Positions 5,414-15,762 of a stretch of DNA of 36,765 bases are shown here, piece after piece (the first letter of the stretch is position 1; every line of letters begins with the position of its first letter). Position numbers and translations under genes: made by a program. Below the pieces are notes generated by a model. The model had not been told where the DNA came from. It saw only the letters and a program-made list of their open reading frames with translations, and ran no database searches. This DNA comes from a virus. The stretch covers positions 1 through 36,765 of the IMG/VR virus record IMGVR_UViG_3300042514_000228; one strand, 5' to 3'.

Positions 5414-5968
5414 ATGGCAACAGCACTATTCTTATCGGAGGACTTTCTAAAAGATAACACGCAAGTATCTAAGAATGTCGATATTAAGTATATCAAAGAA
5501 GCCATCCTTTGGGCACAAGATAGCGAGATTCAAACAGTAATTGGCACAACTTACTACGTTGCTTTGATGGGATACATTATCGCCAACACATTAGCAGGCG
5601 TTAACAAGTCGCTAATGGATAACTACATACAGCCCTGTTTGAAGCACTACGTAACTGCTGAATGTATTAGGATGGCGCACTACAAGATTACAAACAAAGG
5701 GCTGCAAATCCAAAACAGCGAGCAAAGCAGCCCAGCTTTCAAGTCGGATGTAGACTATATCTGCGAGATGGAGTTGAACAAAGCGCAATGGTATAAGCAA
5801 CGGCTTATCAATTACCTATGCGAGAACTCTACTTTGTTTCCTGACTATGAGAATCCAGGAAGCGGCTTGGATGTAATTCAGCCCAGCAATAATGCGTTCA
5901 AGTCTAGCATATTTCTTGGAAGCACGCGGCTAGTTCAAAGTTTGCAGCAAAAATATAGAGATGAATAA
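5414..5968 (+). CDS. Head-tail connector/adaptor (DUF6712-like)
   Basis: This 184-residue mostly helical protein directly follows the portal, with a one-base gap between stop and ATG. The start 'MATALFLSEDFLKDNT' and the helices 'KYIKEAILWAQDSEIQTVIG', 'SLMDNYIQPCLKHYV' and 'AECIRMAHYKITNKGLQ' are typical of the DUF6712 family found after portals in Bacteroidetes phages. That family is thought to act as the gp6/gp15-like adaptor ring between portal and tail. Position and helical content agree with this role. No enzymatic motif is seen. Confidence 0.65.
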   Translation: MATALFLSEDFLKDNTQVSKNVDIKYIKEAILWAQDSEIQTVIGTTYYVALMGYIIANTLAGVNKSLMDNYIQPCLKHYVTAECIRMAHYKITNKGLQIQNSEQSSPAFKSDVDYICEMELNKAQWYKQRLINYLCENSTLFPDYENPGSGLDVIQPSNNAFKSSIFLGSTRLVQSLQQKYRDE

Positions 5969-6104
5969 ACGCGGAAAGTCAAAGAAAAACACAGAACTTC
6001 TAAAAGAATACTTACGTGCTACTGACACTCAATCAAGTAATATCACAGATAACGACACTCGGAGCAGCGCATCTACAAATCCAGTCAACAGGAGTAGGTG
6101 ATTT
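5961..6104 (+). CDS. Possible small basic ORF overlapping the next gene
   Basis: The ATG overlaps the end of the connector gene and opens a 47-codon frame. It begins 'MNKRGKSKKNTELLKEYLRA' and turns Ser/Thr/Asn-rich where it overlaps the following gene. It fills the only unassigned bases between 5968 and 6016 and may be a short coupling ORF rather than a functional protein. Half of it lies out of frame inside a convincing gene, so it is weakly supported. Confidence 0.25.
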
Positions 6105-8226
6105 TGCGGAGTGGCAGGCTTTAGAACGTGCGTACCCTTTGCTTTGGGTATTTCACGAAACTACCAGCATAGGTGACCGCGAACTGGTTTATTCTATTCG
6201 CTTGGTTTGTGCTGACAGGGTAATCACAGGCGAAGAAGGTGATGATACGGCAGGTATGGAACAGGAAGTTCTAAGCGATACGTTGCTTATTCTTTTGGAT
6301 TTTCTAGCATACTTTCAGCAGCAACACGCTCAAAGTTACAAGGTAATCACTAGCGCAAGCATCGACCCGTTCACAGAGAGGTTTAACGACCGAGTTGCAG
6401 GCAATAGCGTACTGATCCAAATACGGCAGCCGTTCACATGGGACGCTTGCCAAATTCCACAAACAGGCGCGGCAATCCCACCTAGTGTAGATGGGTTAAC
6501 GCTATACGATTTTTGCGACCCTAGTGTAATTGCACGCTTAACACCTTCGCAAGTAGCTTGTTTGGAAGCGGAGTATGGTATCACTTGCGTGGATGCTACG
6601 GTTACTCAAAATGGAAACGCATTTTTTACGGTACCAGCAGGGGCAACCTATCCACTTATTACTAGATTAGACGGGACAAATAACTTGGGTTCGTTTAACG
6701 CTGGCACAAAAACGCTAAGCTTTACAAGCAATCCATCCAACCTGCAGATTAACGGGGCGCAATCGGAGATTATACCGGGCAACTCCACGTTTAACCTGTT
6801 GGCGAAATTGGATGGCGTGGCTGGTGGAGTGTATAATGCTGGACTTGACACGCTAAATTTCACTACAACGCCTGCAATTCTGCAAAGGAACGCGATACAA
6901 ATTAAGACGTTAGCCAATGCAAGCACGTTTAACCTAATTACCAAATTAGACGGGGCGGCAAACAACGGCACGTGGGACGGAGTGGATACTTTAGACTTTA
7001 CATCTGCTGCCTGTTCACCCGTTACCTTTCAGATTAACGCAGTCAACAAGGAATCCTTGTCAAGTGGCTCGACCTTTAACCTAATTACCAAATTAGACGG
7101 GGCGGTTAATTCGGGCAGTTACGATGCGCCTACGGACACGCTTAGTTTCACAAGTTCATGCCCACCAGTCCCATCGGTATCACTCGCAGTAAGCGACACA
7201 ACGCCTGACGTTGCCCAAGTGATTACACTAACCGCAACACCCACCGACATAACCCCAACTGGTTACACGTTTTTCACATTTGACGGGGTAACTATTCAGT
7301 TAATAATTCAGCAAGCTGGGGCTGTGTATAACTGGACTGTTAACCGTGTTGGAACGTATGATGTGTATGTAATGGCAAGCGATGGCACAGATACCGTGAG
7401 TGATTTTGTTCCCATCGTTGCTACTCAATTATATGAAGCTGAAACAATAGCATATATGACAGCCGTTGGTATTGCAGACAATGGAAGTATTACTGTTCAC
7501 GGGATTACGGGCAGTGCGCTTTGGAGTGCAGTTAATAATTTCTTTGTAACATCAAAAGCAACTACTAATTGGTTGACAAAAATCAAAGCCGCTCACCTTA
7601 TGGTTGGTGGTACGTCAGTCACTACAAAATGGAATGCTGTAAATCCATTAGATACTAATGCCGCTTTTAGGCTTGGGTTCTTTGGTGGTATGACATTTAA
7701 TAGCAATGGCATTACTGGAAATGCTATAAATGCTTACGCAAATACCTTTCTCGATCCTGTTAGTTTTTTAACATCAAACGGTGCTGGTGTTACCATTTAT
7801 CAAAAAAATACAGTTGTACTTAGTTCTATTGCTGATAAATGGTTTTTAGGAACTGTTGCCTCTGGTTCGGATATTTTTGGACTGGATGGCGTAGGTATAG
7901 ATACAATATACCATCCTGTTAATGATGGATTCCCTCCTGTTTCACCAAGCATAGGGAATTTTCAAGGTATTTTCACAGCAAATAGAACCGCTTCAAATGC
8001 AAATAGTCTATTGAAAAATGGGGCTTTAGTGGTTACAAGAACAACAGGAGCTACTGGGAGGTCTACCAACCCAATTACCTTAATGGCTTTAAATCTTGGG
8101 TTATCAACATCGGGTTACGTTAATGCCAATATAGCCACATCAATAATTCACGATGGCATGACAAATGCAGAGGTAATAGAAATGCACGCTGCCATTGCAT
8201 CATTTAATACAGCACTTGGAAGATGA
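6016..8226 (+). CDS. Neck/tail-completion domain fused to repeats and receptor-binding C-terminus
   Basis: This is a 736-residue mosaic. Residues 1 to about 155 ('LLTLNQVISQITTLGAAHL', 'FHETTSIGDRELVYSIRLVC', 'DPFTERFNDRVAGNSV') resemble tail-completion or neck proteins, which sit between connector and tail. Residues about 195-380 carry four imperfect copies of a roughly 49-residue beta repeat with a core like 'LITKLDGA' and 'DTLSFTS'. Next comes an Ig/PKD-like stretch ('SVSLAVSDTTPDVAQVITLT'). The last about 270 residues look like a lectin-like receptor-binding domain ending 'ATSIIHDGMTNAEVIEMHAA', an ending common in Bacteroidetes phage adhesins. The start is GTG at 6016; an in-frame stop at 6001 excludes longer forms. 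The DNA from about 7430 on is visibly richer in A/T, suggesting a separately acquired tip domain. Confidence 0.7.
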   Translation: MLLTLNQVISQITTLGAAHLQIQSTGVGDFAEWQALERAYPLLWVFHETTSIGDRELVYSIRLVCADRVITGEEGDDTAGMEQEVLSDTLLILLDFLAYFQQQHAQSYKVITSASIDPFTERFNDRVAGNSVLIQIRQPFTWDACQIPQTGAAIPPSVDGLTLYDFCDPSVIARLTPSQVACLEAEYGITCVDATVTQNGNAFFTVPAGATYPLITRLDGTNNLGSFNAGTKTLSFTSNPSNLQINGAQSEIIPGNSTFNLLAKLDGVAGGVYNAGLDTLNFTTTPAILQRNAIQIKTLANASTFNLITKLDGAANNGTWDGVDTLDFTSAACSPVTFQINAVNKESLSSGSTFNLITKLDGAVNSGSYDAPTDTLSFTSSCPPVPSVSLAVSDTTPDVAQVITLTATPTDITPTGYTFFTFDGVTIQLIIQQAGAVYNWTVNRVGTYDVYVMASDGTDTVSDFVPIVATQLYEAETIAYMTAVGIADNGSITVHGITGSALWSAVNNFFVTSKATTNWLTKIKAAHLMVGGTSVTTKWNAVNPLDTNAAFRLGFFGGMTFNSNGITGNAINAYANTFLDPVSFLTSNGAGVTIYQKNTVVLSSIADKWFLGTVASGSDIFGLDGVGIDTIYHPVNDGFPPVSPSIGNFQGIFTANRTASNANSLLKNGALVVTRTTGATGRSTNPITLMALNLGLSTSGYVNANIATSIIHDGMTNAEVIEMHAAIASFNTALGR
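6596..7160 (+). repeat. Four intragenic repeats of about 147 bp
   Basis: Four degenerate units of about 49 codons run in frame within the adhesin gene. The third and fourth share an exact 31-base block at 6928-6958 and 7075-7105, 147 bases apart, beginning TTTAACCTAATTACC. Such identity suggests recent duplication or gene conversion, and it offers a site for repeat-number change. Confidence 0.85.
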
Positions 8227-11400: not shown

Positions 11401-11664
11401 ATGACCACACTAACCCAACTTGAAACCGCGCTAATTGACACGCCAAACCTTAGCGAATTGGCAAAACTAAAAGGACAAATTGCAGCTGTAAGGTTGCAAG
11501 CCGAAACCTCCGCACACATCGAATGCGACAAAGTAACGCTGGGCGAACTTGCACGTGCTTTGCAAGTGGAAAGCCATTGGAACGGGCGCACGTATAGCCT
11601 AACGATTGAAAACGGGGCGCATTTTGTAATACTTCAAACGCCTGTAATTGTAAGCGCAAAATGA
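11401..11664 (+). CDS. Hypothetical protein
   Basis: This is an 87-residue protein beginning at an ATG with an AC-rich leader (AAACCAAACCACG). The first half is helical ('LIDTPNLSELAKLKGQIAAV'); the second half has 'VTLGELARALQVESHWNGRT' and a beta-rich end. No family is recognised. Its stop overlaps the next start (ATGA), so it is co-translated with the DnaA-IV-like protein and may work with it. The 68 bases before it hold no gene or clear hairpin. Confidence 0.5.
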   Translation: MTTLTQLETALIDTPNLSELAKLKGQIAAVRLQAETSAHIECDKVTLGELARALQVESHWNGRTYSLTIENGAHFVILQTPVIVSAK

Positions 11665-12032
11665 AAATGACAGCAGAACAACTGGCCGCCATAAAGCAAC
11701 GGCTAAGTGAGCGCAAATTCCTACCCGATGTAAGTGTTGAGGGGCTATGTATTGCCGCAATGCGAGTACATCAGATAGAATGGGAGCAGATAACAAGAAA
11801 GTCGAACCTTCCGCACGTTGTGAAATGTCGGGAACAAATAGCCTACGTTATCTACACCTACATCAACCAGTCTACGTACTTGGACATGGGTAAGTTGCTA
11901 AATAGAACCCATGCTACAATAATCCACAACGTAAGGCAAGCAAGGGCATACATATCAATTGAGCCAAAGTATAAGCATCAAATTGAAACAATAGTAAAGT
12001 TGGCAAAAGAATGGGAACAAGAGCAGAAATAA
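11661..12032 (+). CDS. DnaA domain IV-like DNA-binding protein
   Basis: This is a 123-residue protein whose C-terminal half resembles the DnaA DNA-binding domain. 'VVKCREQIAYVIYTYI' corresponds to the first helices ('R...R..A.yl'), 'YLDMGKLLNRTHATIIHNVR' corresponds to the signature with 'GRDHSTVLH', and another helix follows. In DnaA this domain reads 9-bp boxes at the replication origin. There is no AAA+ ATPase, so it would bind DNA without opening it. It lies upstream of an array of 9-mers at 12522-12761, which makes it a natural candidate to bind them. It is translationally coupled to both neighbours. Confidence 0.7.
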   Translation: MKMTAEQLAAIKQRLSERKFLPDVSVEGLCIAAMRVHQIEWEQITRKSNLPHVVKCREQIAYVIYTYINQSTYLDMGKLLNRTHATIIHNVRQARAYISIEPKYKHQIETIVKLAKEWEQEQK

Positions 12033-12199
12033 TCCGCGCCCTACTACTTCAAGGCAGCTACTCCGTTGTCGACTTACAAGCCCACGTTAGCCGAATACAA
12101 CAACGCAAGAAGTGGAGTGATAGCGTGATTGAAAATGAGTTGAAGAAGTTGCCAGTTACTAAGGATGGAAACCTTTACACTATTGAGCCATGCCAGTAA
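12011..12199 (+). CDS. Small winged-helix-like protein
   Basis: This is a 62-residue protein. It has a helix-turn-helix-like order: 'AEIIRALLLQGSYSVVDLQA' followed by 'WSDSVIENELKKLPVTKDGN' and 'LYTIE', the last two looking like a wing. The start overlaps the previous gene by 22 bases and the stop overlaps the next start, so it belongs to the same operon. A DNA-binding accessory role near the origin is plausible but not shown by any family match. Confidence 0.45.
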   Translation: MGTRAEIIRALLLQGSYSVVDLQAHVSRIQQRKKWSDSVIENELKKLPVTKDGNLYTIEPCQ

Positions 12200-12471
12200 A
12201 CAAGTCCGCTTTCAAACGTTACCTTGTAATCATTCGCGAGCTTCGAGGTGCCAGCTACGATATGCCACTATCAAGGTTTGCTTTAGCCGATAAGGTTAAC
12301 TCGTCCCTGGGAAATGATATTTCTGCGGCAACCGTTGAAAAGGATATCCATACGCTGCGGCATGATAGCGACCTTGCGTTTTTCGTTCCAATCCGAGCGC
12401 GTAAGTTAGGGTATTGGATTGAGGACGACTACCTACTTTCTGCACACATCGCCAAAACGTGGCGCATCTAA
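12190..12471 (+). CDS. HTH transcriptional regulator-like protein
   Basis: This is a 93-residue protein resembling the N-terminal helix-turn-helix half of WYL-type regulators of Bacteroidetes. It has 'SAFKRYLVIIRELRG', then 'ISAATVEKDIHTLRHDSDLA' (the recognition helix region), then 'GYWIEDDYLLSAHI'. The ligand-sensing WYL half is missing, so this is either a short stand-alone regulator or a shortened family member. It is the last gene before the terminator and the 478-base gap, so the gap's palindromes and 9-mers could be its sites. Confidence 0.55.
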   Translation: MPVNKSAFKRYLVIIRELRGASYDMPLSRFALADKVNSSLGNDISAATVEKDIHTLRHDSDLAFFVPIRARKLGYWIEDDYLLSAHIAKTWRI

Positions 12472-12512: not shown

Positions 12513-12761
12513 TGTAAAGTCTTTACAGTAGATTTTGGCAGCACTTTACAGTAACTTTATAGCATTGGCGCGGCTTTGAGAAATGTTTACTGTAAAATTT
12601 TACTGTAAAGTTGGATTATGAAAATAAAAAAGGCAAAACAAAAAATTCTAAAATTTTCAATTAGGTGTCAAATTTTACAGTAAAACCTTCTACATCCCGC
12701 ATAAACATTGATTTTTTAGTGTAAAGTAGGTGTAAAATTACTTTACAGTAGGTTTACAGTA
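12513..12761. repeat. Array of seven TTTACAGTA 9-mers (origin or operator candidate)
   Basis: TTTACAGTA occurs at 12522-12530, 12545-12553, 12674-12682, 12742-12750 and 12753-12761, and in inverse orientation (TACTGTAAA) at 12588-12596 and 12601-12609. Two larger dyads overlap it: TGTAAAGTCTTTACA at 12513-12527, and TGTAAAGTA/TACTTTACA at 12720-12728 with 12739-12747. The stretch between 12610 and 12720 is very A/T-rich. Clustering in a gene-free gap just before the primase-helicase genes suits an iteron-type replication origin; a multi-site operator for the promoter at 12791 is the alternative. Confidence 0.75.
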
Positions 12762-12768
12762 TATTTTT

Positions 12769-12798
12769 TTGTTTGAATCAAAATTATGTTTATATTTG
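12769..12798 (+). promoter_or_regulatory. Strong Bacteroidetes-type promoter for the replication operon
   Basis: TTG (12769-12771), a 19-base spacer, and TATATTTG (12791-12798) is the best consensus match in the window. The last 9-mer of the array ends only eight bases upstream, so a protein bound to the array could control it. Expected start of transcription is about 12803. Confidence 0.8.
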
Positions 12799-12802
12799 CA
12801 CC

Positions 12803-12949
12803 CGTTCGGAGTATCGCCCGAATCAAATACATGAAGCTAAAAAACAAACTTTACTAAAAAATCCTTCACGGGGCAACCTCCGCAAAGCCGTCTTCATGTG
12901 GCTTGCGTAGGGTCGACTGATAACCGATGCCCCGTGACGGTATTTTGTC
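12803..12949 (+). promoter_or_regulatory. Structured 5' leader with predicted pseudoknot
   Basis: This leader of about 147 nt has a nested set of helices. There is a 5' hairpin GTTCGG/CCGAAT (12804-12809 with 12818-12823). A closing stem pairs TCACGGGGC (12866-12874) with GCCCCGTGA (12929-12937), 9 bp. Inside it an 11-bp stem (CCT-CGCAA-GCC at 12877-12889 with GGC-TTGCG-AGG at 12900-12911) carries a 10-base loop, and eight bases of that loop, CTTCATGT (12892-12899), are exactly complementary to ACATGAAG at 12829-12836 upstream, giving a pseudoknot. A small TGAC/GTCA hairpin covers the base before and the first base of the ATG at 12950. A riboswitch, autoregulatory leader or processed ncRNA are all possible. 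Confidence 0.7.
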
Positions 12950-13495
12950 ATGAACAAGAAAACAATTAATGAAGAATTGGATGCTTTATTCTCGGAGTCT
13001 ATTTGGTTTGAGGATAAGGAACAAGCAAAAGCCAGCTTTAATGCTTTAATGAAGCTAGTAGATGAACTATCTAAAAGCCCACGCGATTATGAGTATTACG
13101 AAATTTTTGCAACAGCATTAGATAAAGAGCCTAAAGAAATAAAAAGGTTCAATAATCTTTTAGTGATTCAGTTAATTACTGGATTATGGCGCGAAAAATT
13201 AAAGCCGATTGAAATATGGAATCGTGCGTACAACTCTACTCAAATAACTACTCAAACATTTACCGATTGCAATATCATTACGGTAGATGTAACCGACACG
13301 GGATTTAAAGGCGGTGATGCTGGACATGGTTGCGTAGTAAAATTTTCAATTACAGACGTTGCTTCGACCTGTATGTATGTTAATGGTATGGAAGCAAGTT
13401 TTTTTGAACTTGAATTACGTGGTGATTCTGAAAGACGTACTTTTTTAGATGCGCTAAAGTTTGCAGTAGATATAATTGAAACAAACAACAAATGA
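12950..13495 (+). CDS. Hypothetical protein leading the replication operon
   Basis: This is a 181-residue protein behind the strong promoter and structured leader. The first half is helical and acidic ('NEELDALFSESIWFEDKEQA', 'ALMKLVDELSKSPRDYEYYE'). The second half is beta-rich with 'DVTDTGFKGGDAGHGCVVKF' and 'MEASFFELELRGDSERRTFL'. I recognise no family. The stop overlaps the primase start (ATGA), so the two are made together, and an accessory or regulatory role in replication is inferred from that. If the leader is autoregulatory, this product is the first candidate ligand. Confidence 0.55.
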   Translation: MNKKTINEELDALFSESIWFEDKEQAKASFNALMKLVDELSKSPRDYEYYEIFATALDKEPKEIKRFNNLLVIQLITGLWREKLKPIEIWNRAYNSTQITTQTFTDCNIITVDVTDTGFKGGDAGHGCVVKFSITDVASTCMYVNGMEASFFELELRGDSERRTFLDALKFAVDIIETNNK

Positions 13496-15762
13496 GCAAG
13501 CACATCAAATTAGAAAAGGGCAAGTCATTACTTGCTGCTGGGTATTCTTTACTTGTAGCAAGTGAGGACAAACTACCATGCCACAGTTGGAAAGCGTTAA
13601 TGACAACCCCGTGGACGGTTGCGGAGTTAGAAAAGAATATACAGAATCCTAAAGCGTTTCGATACGGCTATCCAACTGGATACAATGACATTTTAGTTAT
13701 TGATATTGATTTAAAGGTGCTGCCGATGGAATTACGGGCTGCATTCTTTACCGAGTTTATAGCTTTTGTACGGGACAATGTAGACGGGTTTGATAAAAAA
13801 GTAGCTGTACATAAGACTATGAATTTCGGGTATCATTTAACCTATAGAACGCGGTTAATGATGGGTAACGAAAAGATTGCAGTACCTGTACTAACGGGTT
13901 TAAAATCTGAAAGTAGTGGAAAAACACAAGCCTTAATTGAAAGCCGAGGGACTGGTGGTTATGCGTTACTTTACGATGAATGCACAAACGGATTAGACTA
14001 TACAGCTATCCAATACCTAAGCGATGAAGAACATAATACACTACTTGCTATTTGCAAGATGTATGATGAACGCGTGGAGGTGCAAGAAATTGAGCAACCA
14101 AAAAAAGACAAAGCAACTGGAGTAAGCCCTTGGCAAGATTACAACCAAAGGCATACGGTTTTTGATGTAGTTGGTGATGAATTTAAAGTGATAAGAAACC
14201 TTGCAAGTAAAACCGTAATAAAGCGACACGGGGCAATTTCCGCACATTCGGGCTACGTGTTTAAGGATAGCGGTTGCTTGTACTTATTTAGTACGGGAAC
14301 GGCATACCCTAACGAAAAATTACTAAGCCCTTTTGCATTATTTGCTTACAAATACCATAGCGGCAATATGAGTACAGCGGCTAAAGAGTTGTATGCAAGC
14401 GGTTATGGTGATAGGATTAAGTTACCACAGCCCGAAATAGCTAAAGTAGATAAGCCAGTAATTGAAAAGCTATCTTTTCCTTTAGATATTTATCCTACTG
14501 AAATTCAAAATTATTTAATAGAATGCAATAGAACATTAGATAGTTCAATAGATTACATGGGAGCTGGATTGCTTTGGATGCTATCTATTTTGGTAGGTAA
14601 TAGCATGAAGATACAAGTTAAAAAAGGGTGGGACGAATGCTGTACTATTTGGGTAACGGTAGTTGGTAAAGCTGGAGTTGGAAAGTCGCCATCAATAAAC
14701 AACGTAATTAGACCGCTAATCCAAGCCAACAGCCGAGAAATACGCGAGTATCAAAAACGATTTAGAGAGTGGGACGAATACGACAAACTAAGCAAAAAGG
14801 AAAAGGAACAACGCCCAGAGGTGCAATGCCCAATCAAAAAGCAGTTTATAGTTAACGATGTAACGCTTGAAGCATTGGTAGAATTGCATGAAGAAAATCC
14901 AAACGCGGTTGGAGTATTTAAGGACGAACTTGCAGGCTGGATTAAGGACATGAACAAATATCGAGCTGGTTCTGACTTGGAGTTTTGGCTTTCAACTTTT
15001 AGCAACCAACCAGCAGCATTAAACAGAAAGACGGTTAAAAACACTTACGTTCACAGCCCAATCATTCCTGTACTTGGTGGCATACAACCAGCTGTATTGA
15101 ATCAAATTTTTACAGACGAATATCGGGACAATGGATTTAGTGATAGGATGCTACTTTGCTATCCTGACATTCAAGTGGAAATGTATAATGATAATGAACT
15201 AAGCGAAGAATTAATAGACTGGTATCATAATTACATAGGGGAACTTCATGCGCATATAAAAAACAGCCTTATCGTATTTGATGAAGAACGAGAAATAAAA
15301 CCACATTTAATACCTATGGACAATGCTGCAAAAGCAGAATGGAAACGGATTAATAATAAGATTACTATAATGCAGAATAGCGATAATGAAAGCGAGTTCA
15401 CTAAGTCCATGCTACCAAAGCAAAAGACTTACGTTCCACGTTTTGCTTTACTATTATCTATTATTGATGCCTATGCAAATGGTGAAGAATTAACCCGACC
15501 TATTGACGCGGCTACTATGATAAAAGCCGAGCGATTATCTGACTACTTTATCACAATGAGTAAAAAGGTAAAAGTAGATAGTATGGCATACAACGTAATA
15601 CGCGAAGCGGCTAATGTCAAAGGAGCGGCAACACCTAAAGAACGATGCAAGCAAATGTGGAGGACTGACACCGACCTTAATAGAACGTCCGCAGCCGAGT
15701 TACTTGCGGTATCGCGCCAAACGATTATCAACTGGATTAAAGAGTTTGAGAATGCAGCTTAG
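13492..15762 (+). CDS. Primase-polymerase/DUF3987 helicase fusion
   Basis: This is a 756-residue replication protein. Residues 1 to about 200 look like a bifunctional primase/polymerase (archaeo-eukaryotic primase) domain: 'GYNDILVIDIDLK' places acidic D71 and D73, followed by 'GYHLTYRTR' and 'ESRGTGGYALL'. After a linker, a DUF3987-like ATPase has a Walker A motif 'GKAGVGKS' (392-399) and a Walker B-like 'VFKDELAGWI' about 90 residues later. The C-terminus has an HTH-like end ('SAAELLAVSRQTIINWIKEF'). Such proteins prime and unwind DNA at the phage fork. It lies just downstream of the 9-mer array and overlaps the helicase gene by 11 bases. Confidence 0.85.
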   Translation: MSKHIKLEKGKSLLAAGYSLLVASEDKLPCHSWKALMTTPWTVAELEKNIQNPKAFRYGYPTGYNDILVIDIDLKVLPMELRAAFFTEFIAFVRDNVDGFDKKVAVHKTMNFGYHLTYRTRLMMGNEKIAVPVLTGLKSESSGKTQALIESRGTGGYALLYDECTNGLDYTAIQYLSDEEHNTLLAICKMYDERVEVQEIEQPKKDKATGVSPWQDYNQRHTVFDVVGDEFKVIRNLASKTVIKRHGAISAHSGYVFKDSGCLYLFSTGTAYPNEKLLSPFALFAYKYHSGNMSTAAKELYASGYGDRIKLPQPEIAKVDKPVIEKLSFPLDIYPTEIQNYLIECNRTLDSSIDYMGAGLLWMLSILVGNSMKIQVKKGWDECCTIWVTVVGKAGVGKSPSINNVIRPLIQANSREIREYQKRFREWDEYDKLSKKEKEQRPEVQCPIKKQFIVNDVTLEALVELHEENPNAVGVFKDELAGWIKDMNKYRAGSDLEFWLSTFSNQPAALNRKTVKNTYVHSPIIPVLGGIQPAVLNQIFTDEYRDNGFSDRMLLCYPDIQVEMYNDNELSEELIDWYHNYIGELHAHIKNSLIVFDEEREIKPHLIPMDNAAKAEWKRINNKITIMQNSDNESEFTKSMLPKQKTYVPRFALLLSIIDAYANGEELTRPIDAATMIKAERLSDYFITMSKKVKVDSMAYNVIREAANVKGAATPKERCKQMWRTDTDLNRTSAAELLAVSRQTIINWIKEFENAA

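Follow-up and report, generated by a model that had tools for sequence, protein, structure and literature searches.

Iteron plasmids encode winged-helix Rep_3 initiators (RepE of F, RepA of P1, TrfA of RK2) that carry neither primase nor helicase, and for uncultured phages the assignment of a replication origin is mostly guesswork. Experimental precedent for a different arrangement comes from SaPI Rep and SCCmec Cch2, self-encoded helicases whose C-terminal domains bind iterons beside their own genes, and SaPI origins adjoin rep directly downstream (PMC7581432). The principle of an initiator with matched iterons is already known from SaPI Rep. All3500 and other PrimPol-PV1 proteins of mobile elements consist of an AEP primase fused to a putative DUF3987 helicase, but iterons are unmentioned in the text of that report (PMC5862659). 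In the open literature searched, iterons were nowhere found to be described for DUF3987 PrimPol proteins, and the PrimPol-DUF3987 iteron family and its readable specificity code appear to be undescribed there.

The locus analysed here belongs to a 36,765-bp virus record (IMGVR_UViG_3300042514_000228), taken at its full length and called the window below. It resembles the SaPI Rep and Cch2 systems in that a self-encoded initiator helicase would use its C-terminal domain to read short iterons by its own gene, in that such a helicase often comes with an AEP primase, as a partner or in fusion, and, in part of the PrimPol-DUF3987 family, in a downstream origin like that of SaPIs. It differs in its helicase, which is of the DUF3987 rather than the DUF927 or D5/Primase_Cterm type, in its Bacteroidota-associated phages, in the upstream position of most arrays, and in a residue-by-base code visible across the family. 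DUF3987 was the sole Pfam helicase match of the initiator, with no homology to DUF927 or D5/Primase_Cterm, so that the protein would work like SaPI Rep but outside that family. ORF904 of the archaeal plasmid pRN1 is likewise a multidomain primase and helicase with a matching PrimPol fold; however, only the PrimPol part was matched with confidence, and the helicase and DNA-binding parts found no match. Iteron plasmids likewise have several short iterons, direct or inverted, next to an A/T-rich region in the vicinity of the initiator gene, and possibly share autoregulation, but the phage initiator carries its own primase and helicase and no DnaA box accompanies the phage array.

An earlier note made from the letters of the window had reported a 9-mer occurring five times forward and twice in reverse within about 240 bases. 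All seven exact copies of TTTACAGTA were found at 12522-12761 (Table 1, which lists them in the opposite-strand reading, TACTGTAAA), and a count of the 9-mer outside the gap, which the note had suggested as a check, found no further exact copy anywhere in the 36,765 bp. Of all 9-mers in the record, this one alone clusters in such a way. When the 479-bp gap was shuffled 20,000 times with its dinucleotides preserved, TTTACAGTA occurred at most twice, and 9-mers containing G/C never exceeded five copies in 5,000 shuffles of the same gap. Box positions were numbered from the third letter of TACTGTAAA (C1 T2 G3 T4 A5 A6 A7). The palindromes claimed in the note were present, but there were three (TTTACWGTAAA) rather than two, and all were pairs of overlapping inverted iterons. 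The gap also holds GTGTAAA half-sites near 12513 and 12730. The iterons form two groups, one on each side of a box-free A/T-rich stretch, and few 60-bp stretches of the record are less stable than 12593-12652 and 12735-12794. The A/T-rich region that the iteron-origin class requires within or beside the array was thus present by predicted stability, and a short word recurs within a single intergenic region next to the initiator gene, in the window as in its relatives. GC skew was uninformative, being positive nearly throughout the record; its lack of a switch at the array counts against the origin reading.

Table 1. Features of the array region in the window, and sites of the kissing leader in relatives
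Feature	Position	Strand	Basis or remark
Iteron 1, TACTGTAAA, exact	12522..12530	-	Sequence match
Iteron 2, TACTGTAAA, exact	12545..12553	-	Sequence match
Palindrome TTTACTGTAAA	12586..12596		Exact iteron 3 (12588-12596, +); overlaps an iteron with one mismatch on the opposite strand
Palindrome TTTACTGTAAA	12599..12609		Exact iteron 4 (12601-12609, +); overlaps an iteron with one mismatch on the opposite strand
A/T-rich iteron-free core, candidate unwinding element	12610..12673		Low stability of 12593-12652
Palindrome TTTACAGTAAA	12674..12684		Contains exact iteron 5 (12674-12682, -)
Imperfect iteron TAGTGTAAA	12717..12725	+	Sequence match; GTGTAAA form usual among relatives
Iteron 6, TACTGTAAA, exact	12742..12750	-	Sequence match
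Iteron 7, TACTGTAAA, exact	12753..12761	-	Sequence match
Putative Bacteroidota-type promoter of the replication operon	12769..12798	+	Sequence match; TTG at 12769, TATATTTG at 12791
Structured leader with kissing hairpin loops, distinct from the iterons	12796..12949	+	TATC/GATA here; 5-8 bp in relatives
181-aa ORF, first gene of the operon	12950..13495	+	ORF list
756-aa putative initiator	13492..15762	+	PrimPol ~1-320, DUF3987 helicase 352-692, C-terminal HTH ~715-755
Kissing leader in relatives	L001:4105-4205; L009:4105-4205; L006:4878-4972; L177:2835-2939; L182:3880-3976		
Kissing leader, further sites	L188 near 3884; L155 near 3882 and 9063		

The array had been described as lying directly upstream of the primase-helicase. 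It does lie upstream, but the promoter, which starts 8 bp past the last iteron, a leader of ~150 nt and the 181-aa ORF, for which Pfam and PHROG gave no match, intervene. Genes for a SNF2/DEAD-like helicase and a VRR nuclease come after that of the 756-aa protein. The promoter type and the MAG relatives point to Bacteroidota as hosts. On the other side of the array, a 93-aa ORF (12190-12471) looks by eye like the winged-HTH N-terminal half of WYL-type regulators standing alone, and ORFs of this type precede several unrelated replication modules in relatives. Further upstream (11661-12032) lies a phage-encoded 123-aa protein that resembles DnaA domain IV (Bac_DnaA_C, E 6e-6) and lacks an ATPase domain; nine other phage contigs encode it with 84-97% identity.

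The 756-aa protein matched DUF3987 in Pfam with an E-value of 2e-54. Its N-terminal part showed a fold match to the pRN1 ORF904 primase-polymerase (1rni, E 1.7e-5), and Prim-Pol (PF09250) was matched in 10 of 14 relatives. The PrimPol catalytic residues (DxD and H: D71, D73, H115) were invariant in alignment A1, as were the Walker A residues G392..G397-K398 and D478-E479 of what is by sequence a P-loop ATPase/helicase domain. The C-terminus is a trihelical HTH, for which fold searches gave weak E-values, with the recognition helix VSRQTIINW (V740-W748). A1 used as a profile against the sequences of solved structures gave zero matches. Relatives in the phage and plasmid record collections were distant only (<32% identity), and a scan of bacterial genomes gave no match with the single protein as query and eight loci with a profile.

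A profile scan counted 537 relatives. An array was scored where five or more identical 8-mers stood within 1.7 kb ahead of the gene or right behind its stop codon. By this definition 137 of 157 relatives from viral contigs had one; the rest mostly have incomplete sequence or four copies, and a clear array was absent in a few (L129, L173/L176, L200, L077). In almost every relative, 7-21 iterons lie immediately upstream or directly downstream of the gene. Their words vary (GTGTAAAGT, GTGTGAAA, GTGTAACAT, GTGGGACAT, GTGTACAAA, GTTTAAAA and others) within a common GTG- or GTT-type frame. L002 and L005, whose primase-helicases are 94-96% identical to that of the window, retained the seven boxes, arranged as in the window, and a scan with the pattern TTTACAGTANNTTTACAGTA hit 17 viral stretches, of which only these two held the array, the rest being unrelated pairs. 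One apparent upstream array, ATCATCAT in L179, was rejected as a microsatellite, the true array of L179 lying downstream of the gene. Several other arrangements were observed alongside. Related phages with a different replication protein of 791-797 aa have different arrays in the equivalent position (L084, ~5850-6080; L086, ~5840-6110), with words like GGCGTAA and GGACGTA, and phages with a VirE_N/BT4734-like protein (L082, L117) have no array at the corresponding place. A second array of TAGTGGAAAACAAAA type, distinct from the gene-adjacent one, lies ~3 kb upstream of the primase in L073 (2001-2438) and also occurs in L011, L058 and L067. L130 and L132 have a perfect host DnaA box, TTATCCACA, right after the downstream iteron array.

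We further compared the recognition helix with the box over 43 helix/box types, using a tree from which the HTH was left out. The boxes had in part been oriented and put in register by hand. Since relatedness inflates sequence counts, independent changes were tested. Arg742 went with G at box position 3 in 34/34 types versus 0/9 without G3 (seven changes each), and Arg747 with CA at positions 7-8 (C7A8) in 10/10 types versus 0/33 others (nine changes each). For residue 747 and C7A8, the box changed with the residue in 8:0 independent pairs (p=0.008). Arg743 accompanied G5 in 6/7 types, a rule with five exceptions that is only partial because G5 is also found without Arg743; Lys743 was discarded as a predictor of G5 after three failures. 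The rules were formulated on upstream arrays and then tried on downstream arrays and bacterial genomes. In the downstream arrays both held without exception (R742, 10/10 and 7/7; R747, 5/5 and 12/12). Five copies in the independent bacterial-genome collection behaved as predicted, the helix VSLQMIYKY occurring with GTTTAAAA (L202), ISRRTIINY with GTGTGAAA (L203) and Arg747 with TGTAACAT (L204, L205, L206), and the sixth, the remote L208 (33% identity), was an exception with Lys742 and G3. The window itself fits the rules (R742 with G3, N747 with A7). In 32 non-redundant upstream arrays, the partial Mantel correlation of box distance with recognition-helix distance given PrimPol distance was r=0.39 (0/2000 permutations), compared with -0.01 for the helicase domain given PrimPol and 0.035 for PrimPol given the HTH. 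Mutual information between helix and box was roughly diagonal (helix 3-box 3, helix 4-box 5, helix 8-box 7, helix 9-box 8), a pattern as expected if the helix were to lie in the major groove. Across the ~150 related phages compared, three recognition-helix residues predict much of the iteron spelling.

Natural domain swaps were also found, in which chimeric proteins with 97-100% identical primase-helicase parts have a different HTH and different iterons. L192 compared with L172 and L190 was 97-98% identical in PrimPol, 99-100% in the helicase and 65% in the HTH, with boxes GTTTAAAAT versus GTGTAACAT. For L130 and L132 the corresponding values were 98, 100 and 78%, with boxes (G/C)TATGCAAA, which agrees with the rules of the code, versus GTGCGACAT. 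Pairs with lower identities were L193 and L144 (88, 89 and 39%; GGTTGTTAT versus GTGTGACAT) and L158 and L185 (86, 93 and 78%; GTGTGCAA versus GTGTAACAT). Downstream arrays are physically linked to the HTH, and joint transfer alone could therefore make them match; the arrays of L158 and L185 lie upstream, ~2.5 kb from the HTH codons, and linkage does not account for upstream arrays or for repeated independent changes. We consider it likely that PrimPol-DUF3987 initiators of Bacteroidota phages and their adjacent 9-bp iterons form an exchangeable origin-specificity system, in which residues 742, 743, 747 and probably 748 dictate iteron bases through a simple code and close relatives switch by swapping the last ~50 residues together with the iterons.

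The earlier note had proposed an origin by analogy with iterons, with a multi-site operator as the alternative. Because the promoter begins so close to the last iteron, the array may serve as an operator as well, and autoregulation by the initiator in addition to the origin role is plausible. The same spacing, at the promoter of the replication operon, would suit an array that is only the operator of the primase-helicase's own promoter, the origin lying elsewhere, and iteron initiators commonly autoregulate. We regard this explanation as unlikely. About one third of the helix/box types have the array directly behind the stop codon, where it obeys the same HTH-iteron rules and cannot be the operator of that gene's own promoter, and 7-21 sites around an A/T-rich core exceed what autoregulation needs. 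A matched array behind the gene in many relatives instead favours a cis-acting replication site that needs only nearness to its initiator.

It is less probable still, indeed very unlikely, that the array is the operator of a separate regulator, either the 93-aa winged-HTH or the 123-aa DnaA-C-like protein. The array follows closely on the genes of both, one matches DnaA domain IV as given above, and DnaA domain IV reads 9-bp boxes, yet mosaic relatives led us to reject both proteins as binders. The 39.7-kb record L002 keeps the seven boxes without a wHTH gene and with a DnaA-C-like protein only 20% identical, and L005 keeps them although its leader differs and its first ORF is only 50% identical. 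L009, by contrast, is 96% identical to the window in DnaA-C, 90% in the helicase and 97% in the VRR protein, yet its boxes (GTGTACAAA) are entirely different; L001, with a wHTH 88% identical, also has boxes entirely unlike those of the window. In the primase-helicase, identity of L009 to the window was 81-86% for PrimPol, 54-70% for DUF3987 and only 38% for the C-terminal HTH part. L082 and L117 possess the wHTH but no array. The DnaA box TTATNCACA was found nowhere near the array and once in the record, at ~7323, and a host DnaA-box origin was likewise rejected for the lack of such boxes near the array. From L002, L005 and L009, the box type is seen to follow the C-terminal part of the primase-helicase and not the neighbouring genes. 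Simple words do recur in A/T-rich gaps such as this one, but a chance or neutral origin of the repeats is already refuted by L002 and L005, in which every copy is exactly conserved along with the arrangement of all seven, and by the family-wide covariation of helix and iteron, with the shuffles also against it.

With the array, its unique location, the protein domains and the family-wide helix-iteron match established by computation, the array is very probably the iteron region of the phage replication origin, bound by the phage's own PrimPol-DUF3987 helicase via its C-terminal HTH. The origin proposed in the note gained support from the constant pairing of the array with one initiator gene in diverse phages, and also from its shift to the other side of the gene and its covariation with the recognition helix. 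What we infer, from physical binding and melting to the loading of the helicase and the firing of the origin, is as follows. Several copies of the phage-encoded protein would bind the 9-bp iterons through the C-terminal helix-turn-helix, with R742, residue 743, N747 and W748 reading the major groove. Binding in two groups flanking the A/T-rich core would assemble the helicase, which would then open the core, and the fused primase-polymerase would prime the new strands.

The leader between promoter and first gene belongs to a widespread, covarying kissing-loop RNA. Such leaders sit right after TAnnTTTG promoters of phage operons; hairpin 1 starts 1-13 nt after the -7 element, its loop pairs with that of a second hairpin, and the first gene follows ~95-170 nt downstream. 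Under strict geometry the leader was present at 35 of 1872 distinct TAnnTTTG sites (29 different kissing words), compared with 45 of 10462 control sites. In the relatives of Table 1 the loops kiss over 6-8 bp, and they covary in a compensatory way between close relatives (TAGCAG/CTGCTA in L001, TAGCCG/CGGCTA in L009; ACGCAC in L182, ATGCCG in L183, ATGCAG in L189). L177 and L182, whose loops do kiss, were recovered by a covariance model from which the kissing pairs had been left out. The pair of the window itself is weak, with 4 bp (TATC/GATA) that alone are no better than shuffles, and the close relative L002 has a 5-bp pair (TGACA/TGTCA). No Rfam match was found for the leader. Since it is present without iterons in L082 and L117, it is a separate element. 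It is possibly a new regulatory RNA class, for which attenuation, antitermination or 5' end protection are possible roles.

The code makes the origin address readable from the last 50 residues of the initiator and checkable in hundreds of genomes, and its rules predicted arrays in genomes outside those used to make them. With its natural variants, the family is also a ready library in which to test how a small HTH recognises DNA. For proteins annotated only as DUF3987 it suggests a probable function, that of an origin-binding replicative helicase, and it would explain near-identical phages that differ exactly at the initiator tail and the origin. If true, such specificity switching would create replication incompatibility groups among otherwise near-identical phages.
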